NCBI RefSeq assembly: GCF_025770785.1
Contig: NZ_JANZLA010000004.1
Coordinates: forward strand, 186,001 to 250,000
DNA: 64,000 bases
Reading direction: 5' to 3'
Source: Cellulomonas sp. SG140
Lineage (GTDB): Bacteria > Actinomycetota > Actinomycetes > Actinomycetales > Cellulomonadaceae
Shown here piece by piece: positions 52,372 through 60,781 of this stretch. The notes below the pieces were generated by a model. That model ran no database searches, was not told the origin of the DNA, and worked only from the letters and a program-made list of their open reading frames with translations. The translations under genes and the position numbers were made by a program. Each line of letters opens with the position of its first letter. Position 1 is the stretch's first letter.

Positions 52372-52920
52372 CTAGAGGTACTGGCCGGTGGAGCGGGAGC
52401 TGTCGCCGTCGTCGTCCTGGTCGCGCGGGACCACGAAGACGCCCGGTCCCGCCTGCTGCGGGTGCACGCCCGGCGGCAGTGCGCGGCGCATCCCGGTCAG
52501 CTGTGCCTGCGCCGCCATCTGCTGCGCGACCAGCGCCGTCTGGATCCCGTGGAACAGACCCTCGAGCCAGCCGACCAGCTGGGCCTGCGCGATCCGCAGC
52601 TCGGCGTCCGACGGTGCGTCGTCGCTGAACGGCAGCGTGATGCGGTGCAGCTCGGCGACCAGCTCGGGGGACAGGCCCTCCTCGAGCTCGGCCAGCGACC
52701 GCTCGTGGATCTCGGCGAGCCGGCTGCGCGCCGCGTCGTCGAGCGGGGCGCTGCGCACCTCGTCGAGCAGCTGCTTGATCATGGTGCCGATCCGCATCAC
52801 CTTGGCCGGCTGCTCCACGAGCGAACCGACCTGCTCGTCGCGGTCCTCGTCGGGTTCGGGGCGCGCGGCGGAGGTCGTCACGTCGTCGTCCGCCACGGTC
52901 GTCTCGTCGTCCTGGCTCAC
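52372..52920 (-). CDS. bpa: Bacterial proteasome activator Bpa
   Basis: Bpa forms a dodecameric ring that opens the 20S proteasome without ATP and feeds it unfolded proteins. The 182-aa protein has an acidic disordered N-terminus (1-33), a four-helix core (about 35-145) including VEQPAKVMRIGTMIKQLLDE and LVGWLEGLFHGIQTALVAQQ, and a C-terminus ending exactly in GQYL. That motif docks into the proteasome alpha ring. The intact docking motif implies this organism keeps a 20S proteasome. It stands alone between the lipoprotein gene and the quinone reductase. Confidence 0.95.
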   Translation of the reverse strand: MSQDDETTVADDDVTTSAARPEPDEDRDEQVGSLVEQPAKVMRIGTMIKQLLDEVRSAPLDDAARSRLAEIHERSLAELEEGLSPELVAELHRITLPFSDDAPSDAELRIAQAQLVGWLEGLFHGIQTALVAQQMAAQAQLTGMRRALPPGVHPQQAGPGVFVVPRDQDDDGDSSRSTGQYL

Positions 52921-52957: not shown

Positions 52958-53932
52958 CTACGGCACCAGCAGGATCTTGCCGAACGCCGCTCCGGACTCC
53001 ATCAGCTGGTGCGCGTGCGCGGCCTGGTCGAACGGGACGTGCGTGTGCACGACGGGCCGCACCGCTCCGGCCGCCACCAGCGGCCACAGGTGCTGCCGGA
53101 CCTCCGCCATGATCGCCGCCTTCTGGGCCAGGGGACGGGACCGCAAGGTGGTGCCCAGCACGGTGGCGCGGCGCTCGAGCAGCAGGCCGAGGTCGAGCTC
53201 GGCACGGCGGCCCTGCTGCAGGCCGATGACGGCCAGGCGGCCGCCGTCGGCGAGCACCGCGAGGTTCTCGGCCAGGCCGCCGGCGCCGAGCACGTCGAGC
53301 ACCACGTCGACCCCGCGGCCCTCCGTCGCGGTCAGCACCCGGTCGGCGACGCCGGGGAGCCGGTGGTCGACGACGACGTCGGCACCCAGGGCCCGCACCC
53401 GTTCGCACCGCTCGGGACCCCCGGCGGTGGCCAGCACCCGGTGCCCCAGCGCGTGCCCGACCTGCACGGCGACGGACCCGACACCGCCCGAGCCGCCGCG
53501 CACCAGCAGCGTGTCGCCGTCCGTGAACCGAGCGGCCTGCAGCGTCGACCACACCGTGGCCAGCGCCTCCGGCAGCGCCGCCGCCTCCGCGGTCGCCAGG
53601 CCGTCCGGCACCGGCAGGCACAGCGCCGCGGTCGCGACGGCACGCTCGGCGTAGCCGCCGCCGGCCAGCAGCGCCGCGACGCGGTCACCGACGGACCACC
53701 CGCCGGTGCCCGGTCCGAGGGCGGACACCACGCCGCTGATCTCCATCCCGGGCCAGTCCGGCGCCCCCGGCGGAGGTGGGTAGTGACCCTGCCGTTGCAG
53801 CACGTCAGCGCGGTTCACCCCGGCCGCGCCCACCTCGACCAGCAGCTCACCGGCACCCGGCACGGGGTCCGCCACCTGGTCCACCTGCAGCTGCTCCGGC
53901 CCACCGGGGGCTCGCACCACGACCGCTCGCAC
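52958..53932 (-). CDS. Zinc-independent NADPH:quinone oxidoreductase (MDR family)
   Basis: This 324-aa medium-chain reductase has the N-terminal GroES-like domain (GVNRADVLQRQGHYPPPPGA near 39-58) and a Rossmann domain with GGSGGVGSVAVQVGHALG. It lacks the zinc cysteines, as in the PIG3/QOR group, and should reduce quinones or enones with NADPH. GTG 53932 has TACTTT six bases upstream and no Shine-Dalgarno sequence, so it is leaderless. It is divergent from the conservon. Confidence 0.92.
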   Translation of the reverse strand: MRAVVVRAPGGPEQLQVDQVADPVPGAGELLVEVGAAGVNRADVLQRQGHYPPPPGAPDWPGMEISGVVSALGPGTGGWSVGDRVAALLAGGGYAERAVATAALCLPVPDGLATAEAAALPEALATVWSTLQAARFTDGDTLLVRGGSGGVGSVAVQVGHALGHRVLATAGGPERCERVRALGADVVVDHRLPGVADRVLTATEGRGVDVVLDVLGAGGLAENLAVLADGGRLAVIGLQQGRRAELDLGLLLERRATVLGTTLRSRPLAQKAAIMAEVRQHLWPLVAAGAVRPVVHTHVPFDQAAHAHQLMESGAAFGKILLVP

Positions 53933-53938
53933 CCGGTG

Positions 53939-53944
53939 AAAGTA
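53939..53944 (-). promoter_or_regulatory. -10 box TACTTT of a leaderless promoter
   Basis: TACTTT (minus strand) ends six bases before the GTG of the quinone reductase gene. Confidence 0.6.
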
Positions 53945-54105
53945 CGCCGGAACGGACGAATGGGTGTCCCCGAGCGGGTGACGTCCGTGGCAAACTCGCC
54001 CCGCGACCTCATGGTCCGCACCACCGCGACCGATAGCACCCGAACGAGGTCCACGTCACCGCGACGCGCTGAGGCGTGCGTGGCACCGGGTCGGAAGGGA
54101 ACGAC

Positions 54106-57100
54106 ATGCTGCGACGGCTTGGCATCCGCGCCAAGGTTCTGGCGGTTCTTGCCGTGCCCATGCTCGTCATCCTCGCCGCCGGCGTGTTCATCTCCGCGAC
54201 GGCTCTGACGCAGCTGCGGCTGGACCGCGCGACCCGCGGAGTCGTCGACCTGGTGCAGGCCTACCAGCCGCTGAACGAGGCGTTCCAGAAGGAGCGCGTG
54301 GTCTCCACGACCAACGGCAGCGCGGACCAGATCAAGGCGGCCCGCGCGGCGACCGACAAGGCGCTCGCCGACGTCAAGCCGGTCGCCGCCAAGCTGGACC
54401 TCGCCGAGTTCCCGCCGGACATCGTCGGCAAGTTCACCGAGCTGCAGCGGTCCTTCGACAACGACCTGTCCGCCATGCGGCAGAACGTCGACACCCAGGC
54501 GCGACCCGAGATCATCCAGGGCGCCTACGCCAGCCTCGCCAGCCGCCAGATCGCCCTGGTCCAGCTGGTGGCGCAGACGATCAGCAACCGTGACGTCGCC
54601 AAGTACCTCTCGGCGCAGGCCGCGGTGGCGTCGACGGCGGACGACCTGGTGCAGGAGGCCGTCGCCGGCCTGACCCTGATGAACAAGCAGGCCGTCTCCT
54701 CGCTCTCGTCCGTCCAGTTCGCCAACCTGGGTACGCAGACCGAGAACCAGCGGGCGTTGGCCCGTGACCAGGTGGCCAGCCTGGGCGTCAAGAGCATCGA
54801 GATCGGCTACGCCGACCCGAACGCCGACTTCATGACGATGCGGTCGACGATCAGCATCGGCACCAACGCCGCGTTCGCCCTGGTCGACCCGGCAGCGTTC
54901 GCCAAGGCGGTCACCGACCAGACCGGACGCCTCAGCGCGGTCAGCACCGAGGTCCTGAGCAACGGCCACACCGTGGCGACCCGGGCGATCGACGCGCAGA
55001 CCCAGCGCGCCATCATCACGGTCGGCATCGCCATCGGCGCCGCCGTGCTGTCCTTCTTCTTCGCGGTGGTCGTCTCCCGCACCATCGTCGTCCCGCTGCG
55101 TCGCCTGACCGCGGCCGCCGCGGACGTGCGTGACGAGCTGCCGCGCCTGGTCGAGCAGGTGCAGGTCCCCGGTGAGAGCCCCTCGCTGGAGCTGCCGCAG
55201 ATCCCCGTGACGTCGTCCGACGAGGTCGGCCGCCTGGCCGCCGCGTTCAACGCGGTGAACGCCACCACCGTCCAGGTCGCCCAGGAGCAGGCGGCGCTGC
55301 GCGGGTCCATCGCCGAGATGTTCGTCAACGTGGCCCGCCGCGACCAGGTGCTCCTCAACCGCCAGCTGTCGTTCATCGACTCGCTCGAGCGGTCCGAGGA
55401 GGACCCGAGCACCCTGGCCAACCTGTTCCGCCTCGACCACCTCGCCACCCGCATGCGCCGCAACGCGGAGTCGCTGCTGGTGCTCGCCGGCATCGACTCC
55501 GGCCGACGCCTGCGCGACTCGCTGCCGCTGTCGGACGTCATCCGCACCGCCTCGTCCGAGATCGAGCAGTACGACCGCGTCGAGCTGGAGCTCACCGCCG
55601 ACCCGGCCATGCTCGGGTTCAACGCCCTGCCGGCCGCGCACCTGCTCGCGGAGCTGCTGGAGAACGCCACCGTGTTCTCCGAGCCCGAGACGCCGATCGT
55701 GGTGGCCACGGGTGTCCGGGGCGACCAGGTCGAGGTCCGCATCATCGACCAGGGCCTCGGCATGAGCGACGTCGAGCTGGACGCCGCCAACGAGAAGATC
55801 CGGTCGGTCGGCGCGGGTGACGCGCTGGGCGCCCAGCGCCTGGGCCTCTTCGTCGTCGGCCGGCTGGCGCAGCGCCTCGGCGCCGAGGTGGAGCTCCGCA
55901 AGAGCAGCCGTGGCACGACCGGTACCGAGACGGTGGTGCGCTTCCCGTCGACGCTGTTCCAGTCGACCGAGGTCTCCGCGCTGGGCAGCTACGGCCCGGC
56001 GGTCCCGTCGGTGCCCGTGCCCGAGCTGGAGGAGGCGCCCGAGGCGCAGCCGGTGGACCTCGCAGCGCTCACGGACGGCGCGACGCCGCTCGGCCTGCCT
56101 CGTCGTCGCGCGGGGGTCGATCCCGCCGCGCCGCCGGCCTCGCTGCCCACCCGGACCCCTGCCGCCCAGCCTTCGGCCGCCTCGGCACCGCTGCCGCCGG
56201 CCGCGCCGCTGGCGCCCGCCGCCGCGGACCAGCGACCCGGTGGGCTGCCGCAGCGCTCGCGCAAGACGTTCGACGAGAACGCCATCGTCCTGCCCGAGGC
56301 GCCCACCCCGACCCTCTCCCCGTCGCTGTCCGCGGAGGCACCCGACTGGGCACCTGCCGTGGTGGACTCGCAGGCGGGTTCCGGCCTGCCGAGCCGTACC
56401 CGTGCCGCGACCTCGGCGTGGTCCTCGGAGGGTGCGGCCGGCGCGGCAGCCGCGCCGCTGGCACCGGCCCCCGACGCCGGCGTCCGTACGGGGCTGTTCT
56501 CCGGCTTCCGCGGACGCGGGGACCTCGGCGCCACCCGTCCCGTCGACCAGGCGCCGACCGGCCTGCGGCGGGCCGGTGACGGTGCGGCACCGGCAGCGGC
56601 GGCCTTCTTCCAGGCACGGCCCGCCCAGACGAGCTTCCAGCCCGAGCCGCTCGCGCCGGAGACGCCCGAGCCGGCGCCGATGGTGGTGCCCGGGCTCGCT
56701 CCGGACGACGACCTGCTGCCCGCCGACTACGCCGCGTACGCGGACGGCCCTGCCTTCGCCGACGCTCCCTCCTTCGAGGACGCCCCCGCCTTCGCCGACG
56801 CCCCCGCCTTCGCCGACCCGCCCGCCTTCGCTGACGCGCCCGCCTTCGCGGACGGCCCGGCCTTCGCGGACGCCCCGGCCGAGACGCCGGGCGAGCCGGA
56901 CGTCGCAGCCGACGAGCCCGCCGTTCCCGCCGAGCTGCCGGCGTGGGTCCCCGCCTCGCTGTCCGAGCACGACGTGACCGAGGCGGCGCCGCAGGCGCTC
57001 GCCGAACCCGTCACCGAGCCGGCGATGCCGAGCTGGGCGGCGCCGGCGGTCGACCTCGCGGGCTGGGCACCGCCCGCCGACGAGGTGCCGACGTTCGAGC

Positions 57101-58611
57101 CGGAGCCGGCGGCCTTCACCTCGTACAGCGGTTTCGCCGGCTGGTCGGCACCGACCACGGCACCGACCACCGAGACGACCCCGCTCGACGAGCCGGCGGC
57201 GTACCTGCCGTTCGGTCGGTCGATGGACGAGGCGCGGGCGTGGACCACCGGGACCATCCCGGTGGTGCCCGAGCCGATCGGCTTCCCCGGCACCCCGGTG
57301 CCGGCCGCGCCGGAGCCGCCCGCGGCCTGGGCGCCGCCGGTCCCGACCGAGCAGTCCGACGAGGCCGCAGGCGAGTGGCCCCAGCCGGCCTGGCAGTCCC
57401 CGGCCTGGCAGCCGCCGACGTGGTCGTCGCCCTGGAGCGAGCAGGCGCCGGCGGCATCGGTGCCGGACGCCGAGGCGCCGCTGCCGGTGGTCGGCCTCGC
57501 ACCGGACGCGGAGCCGGAGCCGTTGCCGGTCGCCCGTGCGCTGCCGGAGCCCGTCGGCGCAGCGGTGCCGGACGTCGCAGACCCGGTGTTCGGCGGCTGG
57601 CCGCCCGTCCAGGGTGAGCCGGAGGAGTCCGCGCCGACCCAGCTGTTCTCGCCGATCGAGGCCGCGGAGGCCATCGCGCCCGCCCCGGCACCGTTCGCGG
57701 CCCCCACCCCGTTCGGAGGTCAGCCGGAGCCTGAGCCGGCCGAGCCCGTCGAGCCGGCCCCGATCGCCTGGCAGCAGCAGGCCGCCTGGGCCCCCACCAA
57801 CGCCGCCCCGGCAGCGGTCGCCCCGGCGCGCTCTCGGGAGCGTGCACCTCGCAAGCGCGGTCTCTTCGGTCGTCGGCGCCCCGCGCCGGAGACGGGCCAG
57901 ACGCCGGTGGTCCCGGCTGCACCCGTCGCGGCCGCCCCGTCGGCCCCGGTCCGCAGCACCGTATGGGGGCCGGACGGCGCGGCTGCCAAGCCCTCCGTCA
58001 ACCCGCCCGCACCGCAGGCGACGGCGTTCGCGACCGCTCCCGGCTTCGAGGCCCCGGCCTTCGCGGCACCCGTGCCGACGTTCTCCCCGGCGCCCGCCGC
58101 ACCGGCCCCGCTGCCGCAGGCCGCTCCGCCGGCCCCGCACCCGGCACCGGCCGCACCCCCCGCACCGGCGCCGCTGATGCCGGCGGTGCTCGACACGCGC
58201 CAGGCGGCCTGGTCGGGAGCACCGGAGCCGGCGTCGAACAGCTGGGCGCCGTCCGGCTGGGCGCCGCGCGCCGACTCGGCGAGCACGGTGCCGCAGCCGA
58301 ACCCCGCTCCGGTCGCCCGGATCGGCGCCCTGGACGACGACGTCGCGGCGATGCTCGCGATGCGGTCGGACATCCAGGAGCAGGCTCTGTCCGAGCTGAG
58401 CCAGCTGTCGGCCTACCGGCCGCAGGTGGTGTCCGGCGCCGCCGAGCGCCTCACCAAGCGCGTGCCGACGGCGATCCCCGAGGCGCCCGAGATCGACACC
58501 GCCGCCGCAGGAGCCGAGCGCGACCCGGCCCAGCTGCGGTCACGACTGTCCAGCTTCCAGTCCGGCACCGCCCGCGGTCGCCGTGACGCCGGCCAGGACG
58601 GTGCCCGATGA
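54106..58611 (+). CDS. cvnA: Conservon sensor histidine-kinase-like protein CvnA with giant Pro/Ala tail
   Basis: This 1501-aa membrane kinase heads the conservon. TM1 is 9-31, an extracellular helical (NIT-like) sensor 32-301, TM2 302-325 and a HAMP-like linker 326-395. The helical region RLDHLATRMRRNAESLLVLA (442-461) is the dimerisation part. The GHKL ATPase has LLAELLENATVFSEP (N box, 513-527), DQGLGM (548-553) and GLFVVGRLAQRLG (580-592). After residue 620 comes a low-complexity Pro/Ala-rich tail of about 790 residues with seven PAFADA-like units (882-923). A predicted helical segment (about 1409-1437, DDDVAAMLAMRSDIQEQALS...) lies near the end. ATG 54106 follows GGAAGGGA. Confidence 0.92.
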   Translation: MLRRLGIRAKVLAVLAVPMLVILAAGVFISATALTQLRLDRATRGVVDLVQAYQPLNEAFQKERVVSTTNGSADQIKAARAATDKALADVKPVAAKLDLAEFPPDIVGKFTELQRSFDNDLSAMRQNVDTQARPEIIQGAYASLASRQIALVQLVAQTISNRDVAKYLSAQAAVASTADDLVQEAVAGLTLMNKQAVSSLSSVQFANLGTQTENQRALARDQVASLGVKSIEIGYADPNADFMTMRSTISIGTNAAFALVDPAAFAKAVTDQTGRLSAVSTEVLSNGHTVATRAIDAQTQRAIITVGIAIGAAVLSFFFAVVVSRTIVVPLRRLTAAAADVRDELPRLVEQVQVPGESPSLELPQIPVTSSDEVGRLAAAFNAVNATTVQVAQEQAALRGSIAEMFVNVARRDQVLLNRQLSFIDSLERSEEDPSTLANLFRLDHLATRMRRNAESLLVLAGIDSGRRLRDSLPLSDVIRTASSEIEQYDRVELELTADPAMLGFNALPAAHLLAELLENATVFSEPETPIVVATGVRGDQVEVRIIDQGLGMSDVELDAANEKIRSVGAGDALGAQRLGLFVVGRLAQRLGAEVELRKSSRGTTGTETVVRFPSTLFQSTEVSALGSYGPAVPSVPVPELEEAPEAQPVDLAALTDGATPLGLPRRRAGVDPAAPPASLPTRTPAAQPSAASAPLPPAAPLAPAAADQRPGGLPQRSRKTFDENAIVLPEAPTPTLSPSLSAEAPDWAPAVVDSQAGSGLPSRTRAATSAWSSEGAAGAAAAPLAPAPDAGVRTGLFSGFRGRGDLGATRPVDQAPTGLRRAGDGAAPAAAAFFQARPAQTSFQPEPLAPETPEPAPMVVPGLAPDDDLLPADYAAYADGPAFADAPSFEDAPAFADAPAFADPPAFADAPAFADGPAFADAPAETPGEPDVAADEPAVPAELPAWVPASLSEHDVTEAAPQALAEPVTEPAMPSWAAPAVDLAGWAPPADEVPTFEPEPAAFTSYSGFAGWSAPTTAPTTETTPLDEPAAYLPFGRSMDEARAWTTGTIPVVPEPIGFPGTPVPAAPEPPAAWAPPVPTEQSDEAAGEWPQPAWQSPAWQPPTWSSPWSEQAPAASVPDAEAPLPVVGLAPDAEPEPLPVARALPEPVGAAVPDVADPVFGGWPPVQGEPEESAPTQLFSPIEAAEAIAPAPAPFAAPTPFGGQPEPEPAEPVEPAPIAWQQQAAWAPTNAAPAAVAPARSRERAPRKRGLFGRRRPAPETGQTPVVPAAPVAAAPSAPVRSTVWGPDGAAAKPSVNPPAPQATAFATAPGFEAPAFAAPVPTFSPAPAAPAPLPQAAPPAPHPAPAAPPAPAPLMPAVLDTRQAAWSGAPEPASNSWAPSGWAPRADSASTVPQPNPAPVARIGALDDDVAAMLAMRSDIQEQALSELSQLSAYRPQVVSGAAERLTKRVPTAIPEAPEIDTAAAGAERDPAQLRSRLSSFQSGTARGRRDAGQDGAR
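56749..56874 (+). repeat. Seven 18-bp in-frame repeats encoding PAFADA-like units
   Basis: The units read PAFADA, PSFEDA, PAFADA, PAFADP, PAFADA, PAFADG, PAFADA (residues 882-923 of CvnA). The DNA copies (CCCGCCTTCGCCGACGCC type) are nearly identical, so copy number may vary between strains. Confidence 0.85.
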
Positions 58612-58699
58612 ACCTTCGACCCACCCACCACGTCCCCCGCACCACACCGGGGGTCGGCTGCACAGCAGTCCGTCCCGACTGCACCATCAAGGAGGAAGT

Positions 58700-59149
58700 G
58701 TGACCGCGCTCAGCACCGAGGCAGCCAACTTCGGCTGGCTCCTGGACAACTTCGTCCGGACCGTGCCCGGCACCCGCCACACGTTGGTGGTGTCGGCCGA
58801 CGGTCTGCTCATGGCGATGTCCGAGCAGCTCGACCGCACCAGCGGCGACCAGCTCGCGGCCATCGTCTCGGGCATGTCGAGCCTGACCCGTGGCGCCTCG
58901 CGCCAGCTGCACGCCGGGGAGGTGCGGCAGGCCATCGTCGAGATGGACAACCTGTTCCTCTTCCTGATGAGCGTGTCCAACGGGTCCGTCCTGGCCGTGG
59001 TGGCAGACTCCACGTGCGACGTGGGCCTGATCGGCTACGAGATGGCGATGCTCGTCTCCCGTACCGAGGCGACGCTCACGCCGCAGCTGATCTCGGAGAT
59101 GCGCGGCCAGCTCCCCGTCGACGGTGCTACCCGCGCCCCCGTCGCCTGA
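58700..59149 (+). CDS. cvnB: Conservon roadblock/LC7-domain protein CvnB
   Basis: This 149-aa roadblock/LC7 fold protein is the second conservon component, expected to sit with CvnA, CvnC and the GTPase CvnD at the membrane. FGWLLDNFVRTVPGTRHTLV (10-29), VSADGLLMAMSEQLDR and LFLFLMSVSNGSVLAVVAD are the conserved strands. GTG 58700 has GGAGGA nine bases upstream; the frame is open 39 codons further but without family similarity. It follows cvnA by 88 bases. Confidence 0.93.
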   Translation: MTALSTEAANFGWLLDNFVRTVPGTRHTLVVSADGLLMAMSEQLDRTSGDQLAAIVSGMSSLTRGASRQLHAGEVRQAIVEMDNLFLFLMSVSNGSVLAVVADSTCDVGLIGYEMAMLVSRTEATLTPQLISEMRGQLPVDGATRAPVA

Positions 59150-59162
59150 GCGGAGCCTGACC

Positions 59163-59540
59163 ATGGCAGAGCACCTCGAGTACGAGGCCCGGACGGTACG
59201 GCCCTACGCCGTCACCGGTGGCCGGGTGAAGTCGGCACGGTCCGACCTGCCGCTGGAAGCCCTTGTCGAGCAGATGCCCGGGGCCGTCGCCGGCACCGGT
59301 CTGCCGCCCGAGAAGCGCGCGATCCTGCACCACGCCTCGGTCGGCTACATCTCCGTGGCAGAGCTGTCGGCCCTGCTCCACCTCCCGCTCGGCGTGATCC
59401 GGATCCTCGTGTCCGACCTCGCCGACCAGCAGTTCGTCCGTGTGCACACCTCGCAGCCGGTGGAAGTGAACACCGGTGAGTCCCCCGCCCTGTCCCTGAG
59501 CGTGCTGGAGAGTGTTCTCAATGGCATTTCCGCCCTCTGA
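59163..59540 (+). CDS. cvnC: Conservon DUF742 protein CvnC
   Basis: This 125-aa DUF742 protein contains a winged-helix-like unit. VRPYAVTGGRVKSARSDLPL (13-32) is the family start and SVGYISVAELSALLHLPLGV-IRILVSDLADQ the helix-turn-helix part. ATG 59163 has GGAG seven bases upstream. Its last 20 bases overlap the cvnD start, so translation is coupled. Its function in the complex is unknown. Confidence 0.93.
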   Translation: MAEHLEYEARTVRPYAVTGGRVKSARSDLPLEALVEQMPGAVAGTGLPPEKRAILHHASVGYISVAELSALLHLPLGVIRILVSDLADQQFVRVHTSQPVEVNTGESPALSLSVLESVLNGISAL

Positions 59541-60132
59541 CGCCGCCGTCGCCGCTCCGACGGGACAGGCCGCGTCCACCGCACCCACTGTCGTCAAGAT
59601 CGTCGTCGCGGGCGGCTTCGCCGTCGGCAAGACGACCTTCATCGGGTCCATCTCGGACATCGAGCCCCTCAACACCGAGGCCGCGATGACCGAGCACTCC
59701 GTCGGCGTCGACGACGCCGGTGGCGTGTCCGACCGGAAGACCACCACCACGGTCGCCATGGACTTCGGCCGCATCGCGCTGCCGGGCTCCCTGTGGCTGT
59801 ACCTGTTCGGCACCCCTGGGCAGGACCGCTTCCTGTTCATGTGGGACGACCTGGTCCGCGGCGCGATCGGTGCCGTGGTGCTGGTCGACACCGACCGGCT
59901 CGACCAGTGCTTCCCGGCGGTCGACTACTTCGAGAGCCGTGGCATCCCGTTCGTCGTGGGTGTCAACTGCTTCGACGGCGTCGCCAAGCACGCCCTGGAG
60001 GACGTGCGCGAGGCGCTGGCGATCCCGCCGCACGTGCCGGTGCTGTACACCGACGCGCGTTCGCGGGCCGCGACCAAGCAGGCGCTGATCGCCCTGGTGC
60101 AGCTGGCGATGGCCCGCCTGCGCGCACGCTGA
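59521..60132 (+). CDS. cvnD: Conservon GTPase CvnD
   Basis: This is a 203-aa Ras-like GTPase of the conservon (MglA-related). P-loop AGGFAVGKTT (30-39), the switch-II motif FGTPGQDRF, where Gly replaces the usual Asp of DTPG, and NCFD in the place of NKxD are visible. It likely cycles with CvnB as regulator. ATG 59521 lies inside cvnC; a GTG three codons earlier is an alternative. It ends the four-gene conservon. Confidence 0.94.
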   Translation: MAFPPSDAAVAAPTGQAASTAPTVVKIVVAGGFAVGKTTFIGSISDIEPLNTEAAMTEHSVGVDDAGGVSDRKTTTTVAMDFGRIALPGSLWLYLFGTPGQDRFLFMWDDLVRGAIGAVVLVDTDRLDQCFPAVDYFESRGIPFVVGVNCFDGVAKHALEDVREALAIPPHVPVLYTDARSRAATKQALIALVQLAMARLRAR

Positions 60133-60163: not shown

Positions 60164-60781
60164 ATGACGGCCGGTCCCTCCGGGGGCCGGCCGTCGTCGT
60201 CCGGGGACGGTCCCGTGTCGTCCGAAGGCGGCTCGGTGTCGTCCGAAGGCGGCTGGGTGCCGTCCGGGGGCAGCCCGGTGCCGGACGAGAATGGAGCGGT
60301 GATCCCGAGCCCGCGCACGGCCGCCGAGGCGGACGGCTGGGTGGGGCGGCCGGCGCCGCCGCGTGACCTGGTCTACGTGGACGGTTCGGCGCTGAGCCGG
60401 TTCCTCGAGGGTGCGCCCGAGCGTGCGGCGTGGGGGCAGTTCGTCGCCGGTCGGCAGGGCGACCTGGTGACGTCGGTGCTCGGCGTGACCGAGCTGAAGC
60501 GGGTCGCGCAGCTGCTCGGTAGGCCGGCGCGGGACCAGGCCGATGCCGCGACAGAGCAGGTGGACGTCGTCCGGTTCTCGGACCAGGCGCTGAAGGCGGC
60601 GTCCCGGGTCTCGGCCGTGCTGCCGCCGTTCGTCGCCCTGCACCTGGGCGCGGCGCTGGCGCACCCGGACGTGCGGACGGTGGCGACCTACGACACGGAC
60701 CTGGCGCGCGTGTGCGTGCTGCACGGGCTGGTGGTGGTGTCCCCGGGCTGGCCGGACCGGTGGTGGGAGCGGGTCGGCTGA
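60164..60781 (+). CDS. PIN-domain-like protein with incomplete active site
   Basis: From ATG 60164 the product has 205 aa: a Gly/Ser-rich N-terminus of about 65 residues, partly built from three 21-bp repeats, then a PIN fold. The first acidic residue is in LVYVDGSALSRF and the second in TSVLGVTELKR; the fourth is in VATYDTDLARV. The third, normally in DAIHLA, is replaced (FVALHLGAAL). RNase activity may therefore be weak or lost. No antitoxin gene lies beside it, so a toxin role is not supported. A later GTG (60299) could be the true start. Confidence 0.7.
   Translation: MTAGPSGGRPSSSGDGPVSSEGGSVSSEGGWVPSGGSPVPDENGAVIPSPRTAAEADGWVGRPAPPRDLVYVDGSALSRFLEGAPERAAWGQFVAGRQGDLVTSVLGVTELKRVAQLLGRPARDQADAATEQVDVVRFSDQALKAASRVSAVLPPFVALHLGAALAHPDVRTVATYDTDLARVCVLHGLVVVSPGWPDRWWERVG
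60215..60277 (+). repeat. Three decaying 21-bp tandem repeats
   Basis: GTGTCGTCCGAAGGCGGCTC at 60215, a near-identical unit at 60236 and a diverged one at 60257 encode VSSEGGS, VSSEGGW and VPSGGSP in the N-terminus of the PIN-like protein, if that start is used. Confidence 0.7.

Follow-up and report, generated by a model that had tools for sequence, protein, structure and literature searches.

The locus examined here raises the question of what the very long C-terminal tail of a conservon sensor kinase, CvnA, is for, and whether such a tail sets this genome apart from its relatives. The window, that is, the whole 64,000-nucleotide stretch of Cellulomonas sp. SG140 DNA that was analysed, contains one conservon, in which Pfam searches placed CvnA, CvnB, CvnC and CvnD in that order at 54106-60132 (Table 1). 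Matches to HAMP and HATPase_c, Robl_LC7, DUF742 and PF03029 in four adjacent genes, encoding a histidine kinase, a roadblock protein, a DUF742 protein and a small GTPase, confirmed the reading of the gene order as a conservon in a first-pass annotation made from the letters alone. Order and domains are like those of the actinobacterial G protein systems Cvn1-13 of Streptomyces coelicolor and mfp of mycobacteria. The kinase core of CvnA gave one full match in its own genome, where cvnC was also the only gene with a DUF742 match above the curated cut-off. CvnB, CvnC and CvnD are encoded on the strand of CvnA in 62 of the 64 loci sampled from the window's family, Cellulomonadaceae, the remaining two being interrupted by a contig end; among the 80 loci listed, the closest named one, a Cellulomonas MAG (L251), carries a CvnB 99% identical to that of the window. 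The Pfam search gave no NIT domain in the window CvnA at E≤0.1; many listed relatives carry PF08376. Directly after cvnD there is no accessory gene of the CvnE/CvnF type (P450 or GAF); a gene for a PIN-domain protein with a repetitive N-terminus follows instead (60164-60781). About 1.2 kb upstream of cvnA, on the minus strand, lies the gene for Bpa (bacterial proteasome activator; PF10759, 3.7e-76; 52372-52920), with a zinc-type alcohol dehydrogenase gene between the two. A 1441-codon open frame antisense to cvnA (53815-58140, minus strand) is probably a by-product of high GC content and Pro/Ala codons.

Table 1. Genes of the conservon and segments of the CvnA tail, in window coordinates.
Feature	Position	Strand	Basis
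cvnA, sensor histidine kinase, 1501 aa	54106..58611	+	HAMP 323-383, HATPase_c 510-615; family orthologues
Tether, residues 621-1399, P/A-rich, predicted disordered, fast-evolving	55966..58302	+	pLDDT mostly <50; dN/dS 0.215-0.217
Conserved island 643-674 (DLAALTDG..GLPRRR), LPxR at 663	56032..56127	+	Peak 12-mer above shuffle threshold, 100% of 58 family tails
Conserved island 787-811 (VRTGLFSGFRGRGD; GLFSGFRGRG)	56464..56538	+	100% of 58 family tails, 69% of 13 other-family tails
FADAPA hexapeptide array, residues 884-925	56755..56880	+	Seven units by pattern
Island 1039-1057 (SMDEARAWTTGTIPVVPEP)	57220..57276	+	12-mer scan, pattern; short predicted helix 1038-1047
Basic island RKRGLFGRRR, residues 1249-1258	57850..57879	+	64% of 58 family tails
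Helix 1 (predicted), residues 1411-1436, order-specific	58336..58413	+	AF2 pLDDT about 76; 60/72 order tails by pattern
Motif P1, residues 1449-1461 (LTKRVPTAIPEAP)	58450..58488	+	C-terminal alignment, profile, spacing
Motif P2, residues 1472-1493 (RDPAQLRSRLSSFQSGTARGRR)	58519..58584	+	Peak 12-mer in 100% of 58 family and 13 other-family tails; predicted helix 1474-1482
cvnB, roadblock/LC7 (Robl_LC7), 149 aa, W13 and F18	58700..59149	+	PF03259 1.7e-22; W13 conservation
cvnC, DUF742 protein, 125 aa	59163..59540	+	PF05331 4.3e-25
cvnD, small GTPase, 203 aa	59521..60132	+	PF03029 5.5e-27

Tails were compared in the 64 family loci, 60 of which have a complete tail (L047 and L117 were excluded at contig ends, L042 and L044 because the ORF ends in another frame), in 16 loci from other families of the same order, giving 13 complete tails, and in 60 CvnB loci from across the phylum. 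Among the latter, 52 have a CvnA just upstream and provided the CvnB-linked tails; in the other eight no CvnA was found there (L173, L183, L275, L291-L294 and L296). Complete family tails measured 573-1037 residues (median 853, mean 832, SD 109, n=60), and 22 of the 60 had at least 881 residues, the near-identical strains L102 and L103 being counted in both numbers. Tails from the other families of the order spanned 359-860 residues (n=13), and the CvnB-linked tails of conservons elsewhere in the phylum spanned 37-677 residues (n=52), with a median of 264 against 853 in the Cellulomonas-type family. Since long tails are common within the family and part of the order, they are a trait of those groups and not of this genome. 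The length had been singled out as exceptional for a CvnA protein, and with 22 of 60 relatives at or above it we rejected it as a novelty; the locus is, for its family, an unremarkable conservon with a tail of typical length. In two of the excluded loci, L042 (G181) and L044 (G199), the C-terminal module lies upstream of cvnB in a different frame from the CvnA ORF, the result of either an assembly error or a real frameshift.

The kinase core ends near residue 620, as first proposed, and the tail beyond it (residues 621-1501, 881 residues) is composed of 23% Ala and 19% Pro (42% Pro+Ala). An AF2 model of CvnA 302-1501 with 34 homologues gave a folded core to about residue 620, beyond which pLDDT stayed under 50 almost throughout. 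The tail is predicted to be mostly disordered apart from one helix at 1411-1436 (helix 1; pLDDT about 76) and two further short helices at 1038-1047 and 1474-1482. A C-terminal helix had been claimed at 1409-1437, and it is real as a prediction, given the AF2 helix; the reported FADAPAF-type repeats and basic segment were likewise recovered, as seven FADAPA-type hexapeptides by pattern at 884-925 and as RKRGLFGRRR at 1249. Near-identical strains differ in the FADAPA array, for which the pattern search gave one further tail among 75 (L102).

Window-tail 12-mers were scanned against 58 tails from the family and 13 from other families, with the threshold taken from shuffled tails (1.2% background). 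Islands at 643-674, 787-811 and the C-terminus (1468-1498) reached 100% in the family, and only the C-terminal island was also present in 100% of the 13 other-family tails; outside the islands the tail is poorly alignable among relatives. The most widely conserved part of the tail is its last ~50 residues, which hold a two-part motif. Islands at a 30% threshold nonetheless cover 401 of the 881 tail residues, and the two inner islands at 100% of the 58 family tails would suit a tether that acts as a multi-site scaffold or condensate former, with GLFSGFRGRG, RKRGLFGRRR and DEARAW mattering as much as the end. We consider such a role quite unlikely: apart from GLFSGFRGRG (69%) the inner islands peak at no more than 38% of the 13 other-family tails, and an RGLFGR-type pattern occurs in 2/13 other-family and 0/17 phylum tails. 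The amphipathicity of five tail segments was no better than that of shuffles, which disfavours membrane binding and leaves a membrane-binding amphipathic helix unsupported.

Alignment of 36 of the 74 available C-termini resolved a layout of helix 1, followed by L-x-[RK]-R (P1) and then by R-D-x3-[LV]-R-S-x-L-S-x-F-x-x-G-x3-GR with variants (P2). In the window, P1 reads L-x-[RK]-R at 1449 and P2 reads R-D-x3-L-R-S-x-L-S-S-F-x-x-G-x3-G-R at 1472-1493. The two motifs are spaced by 29.2 ± 2.6 residues (range 26-42) in 72/72 order tails, and the tether ahead of the pair measures 718 ± 154 residues in the 72 tails. The tail splits into this tether and a hook, the motif pair with its near-fixed spacing in the order. 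Comparison with two near-identical strains gave dN/dS values of 0.215 and 0.217 for the tether, with indels, 0.073 and 0.154 for the sensor part, 0.028 and 0.026 for the HAMP-kinase part, and 0 and 0.075 for residues 1400-1501, the last pair reflecting only 0 and 1 amino-acid changes; the corresponding identities were 91-92% for the tether, 99% for the core and 99-100% for the end. On these few substitutions, constraint on the last 102 residues of CvnA equals that on the kinase core. A near-fixed hook geometry on a tether that drifts in length and sequence is the pattern that would be expected of a docking motif, and the likeliest function of the tail end is to dock CvnB (or CvnC) onto the kinase. 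Constraint matching that of the core, in a segment always on the same chain, would also fit autoinhibition, with the C-terminus folding back onto the core, but AF2 of 302-1501 is of low confidence from residue 1440 on (block means about 33-65), and we hold autoinhibition to be highly improbable.

Helix 1 was detected by pattern in 60/72 order tails and in 0/52 CvnB-linked phylum tails (L046 was scored without it, though a variant is visible by eye). At its position 9/72 order tails have a different helix (SAVLYEEM), and the two never co-occur in the 72 tails tested. The replacement helix, EARS[DE]W[MI]ASAVLYEEM, is found in L055, L056, L059-L061, L065, L066, L068 and L069 and, by eye, in L252, L253, L255, L257-L259, L261, L264-L267 and L269-L271; named loci with it belong to Oerskovia, Cellulosimicrobium, Sediminihabitans and Isoptericola. 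Helix 1 is thus both specific to the order and replaceable, which rules out 1411-1436 as a widely conserved piece. The first-pass annotation had pictured a long tether that would let the C-terminal helix reach partners far from the membrane. A fast-changing tether and a constrained C-terminus fit that picture, but conservation of the helix stops at the order, and what is conserved beyond the order sits behind it, at 1449-1493. The same annotation would have abandoned its idea if tails of this length were common and neutral or the helix not conserved; in the family such lengths are indeed common and drifting, and the helix is kept within the order.

A profile built from 72 order sequences matched 22/52 CvnB-linked phylum tails at E≤0.01 against 1/2600 shuffled tails and, when iterated on its own hits, which is partly circular, 33/52 against 0/2600. 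No profile match was obtained for 19/52 phylum tails, many of which show a degenerate pair by eye only; the 37-residue tail of L276 shows, by eye, a P2-like stretch alone. LP[RKQ]R occurred in 42/52 CvnB-linked phylum tails (shuffle mean 1.1, maximum 5 tails in 200 rounds), and stricter motif patterns in 24/52 (shuffle mean 0.3) and 10/17, the shuffles leaving shared ancestry uncontrolled. A protein search with CvnA 1390-1501, among candidates of only ~0.55-1.75 times the length, returned 155 matches; among the 120 listed, 118 have HATPase_c and two are named partial. In its own genome the C-terminal module matched once, the next match having an E of 0.09. Related motifs are present in conservon kinases of the phylum and, by profile and pattern, appear as related pairs that recur in otherwise unalignable tails; the two-part motif is therefore no peculiarity of this genome. 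Because the position of the motif drifts, an ordinary alignment would miss it.

An LPxR-type motif in the C-terminal extension of conservon kinases is already described in the accessible text of Wuichet and Sogaard-Andersen (2014; PMC4316618), so the motif is not new as such. As in conservons elsewhere, it is present here, as four [GS]LPxR sites found by pattern (663, 679, 713 and 760) and a variant, LTKRV, at 1449. Spacing and profile suggest that P1 at 1449 is the local counterpart of the published site. From the lack of a conserved arginine finger in Group 2 MglA/MglB, the same authors raised the idea that the arginine of the motif could act as such a finger in trans, here on CvnD. They did so with caution (PMC4316618), the idea leaves P2 unexplained, and at L327, an A-B-C locus with an intact hook, there is no CvnD match within 4 kb downstream. 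Retention of the hook there is a mild argument against CvnD as its partner, though that genome could supply a different GTPase, and we regard the finger as very unlikely. In the literature searched, with subscription titles mostly outside its scope, we found no description of P2, of the P1-P2 spacing or of long CvnA tethers; the two-part hook, with its nearly constant spacing at the end of a rapidly drifting leash, is an extension of the known LPxR motif. The recurring hook is also at odds with a remark in the accessible text of a 2026 preprint (PMC13015309), which sees 'no notable sequence conservation' in the longer C-terminal domain that MfpE has in Actinobacteria, the proteins compared here being conservon kinases, none of them a named MfpE.

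Which partner the hook might grip can be approached through CvnB. CvnA9 is reported to bind both CvnB9 and CvnC9 (PMC8510531, citing Komatsu 2006), and MfpD, a CvnB homologue, has a conserved Trp12/Phe17 pair on helix 1, Trp12 being solvent-exposed and facing away from the GTPase interface, according to the accessible part of the preprint PMC13015309. The matching W13 is present in 60/60 family, 13/13 other-family and 49/52 CvnA-linked phylum CvnBs, the exceptions beside a CvnA being L280 and L307 (Gln) and L290 (Phe); the F18 position is Leu in 21/52 of the CvnA-linked phylum CvnBs. Four roadblock proteins without an upstream CvnA (L291-L294) also have no helix-1 Trp (Ala, Ala, Ala, Glu), and their contigs carry no DUF742 over the cut-off, three of the four genomes having none at all. 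W13 is kept at L173, where the 4.5 kb upstream of a B-C pair contain no match to CvnA, and at L275, whose roadblock gene comes second, after an A-B-C-D set, and lacks a separate CvnA. At L183 (Phe) and L296 (Trp) the contig breaks off, which makes them uninformative on coupling to CvnA, and the CvnB5 structure (PDB 3leq) has no Trp at this position. Given this mixed distribution, the Trp is a marker of most conservons and does not identify CvnA in particular as its ligand. In five large genomes (L322-L326), A-B-C-D is followed by a second roadblock gene, giving two CvnB-like proteins per CvnA, and LP[RKQ]R occurs once, close to the end of that CvnA.

CvnC is specific to conservons to the same degree as CvnA, and the Trp may therefore serve CvnC. 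The hook could then bind not CvnB but CvnC, the GEF-like DUF742 protein, as the reported CvnA9-CvnC9 interaction (PMC8510531) and the persistence of W13 in the L173 pair, which would leave the Trp of CvnB to CvnC, might allow. CvnC is, however, only 43-54% identical to its window counterpart across the 13 complete other-family loci, against 72-83% for CvnB, and the hook hardly varies, which makes CvnC as the partner unlikely. An AF2 chain of tail, CvnB and CvnD from Cellulomonas carbonis, with stops read through, reached a pLDDT of 43.7 and a pTM of 0.29, too low to speak for docking either way; this low-confidence chain again predicted helix 1 and a helix at P2.

We tentatively favour, at somewhat less than an even chance, a CvnA tail that is a drifting, predicted-disordered tether ending in a two-part docking hook for CvnB, and probably CvnC, which keeps CvnD near the kinase. 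The hook would bind its partner at the CvnA C-terminus; that partner would be CvnB, probably together with CvnC, and the Trp/Phe patch on helix 1 of CvnB would be the receptor. The link would keep the GTPase switch, CvnD, close enough for the kinase to reach and may carry the kinase state to the GTPase without a response regulator. The exact length of the tether would be nearly neutral, and the inner islands may be extra, more lineage-bound contact sites. It is a doubtful though conceivable extension that actinobacterial conservon kinases share the two-part hook (LxRR, ~29 residues, LRSxLSSFxxGxxxGR) and grip the roadblock GAP with it through the exposed helix-1 tryptophan, wiring the G protein to its receptor, on a leash of 570-1040 residues in Cellulomonadaceae and kin.

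Roadblock/LC7 dimers bind disordered partner tails, such as those of the dynein intermediate chain and LAMTOR1, which the grip of CvnB on the hook would resemble in its proposed working principle only. By description only, the tail may also be likened to that of WalK of Streptococcus mutans, a disordered kinase C-terminal tail with a short motif needed for partner binding (accessible text of PMC9087282). WalK differs in that its partner is a response regulator. To our knowledge, neither a roadblock protein nor a GTPase is involved in the WalK tail system.

Biochemistry supporting CvnB as a GAP, CvnC as a GEF and autophosphorylation of the kinase is reported for other conservon members only, and the terminal regions of CvnA8 are described as unstructured (mBio 2026, PMC13343842); the accessible text of that paper gives the target of CvnA8 phosphorylation as unknown. 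For the link from kinase to GTPase in conservons, whose kinases have no response regulator, the recurring hook offers a short, testable peptide.
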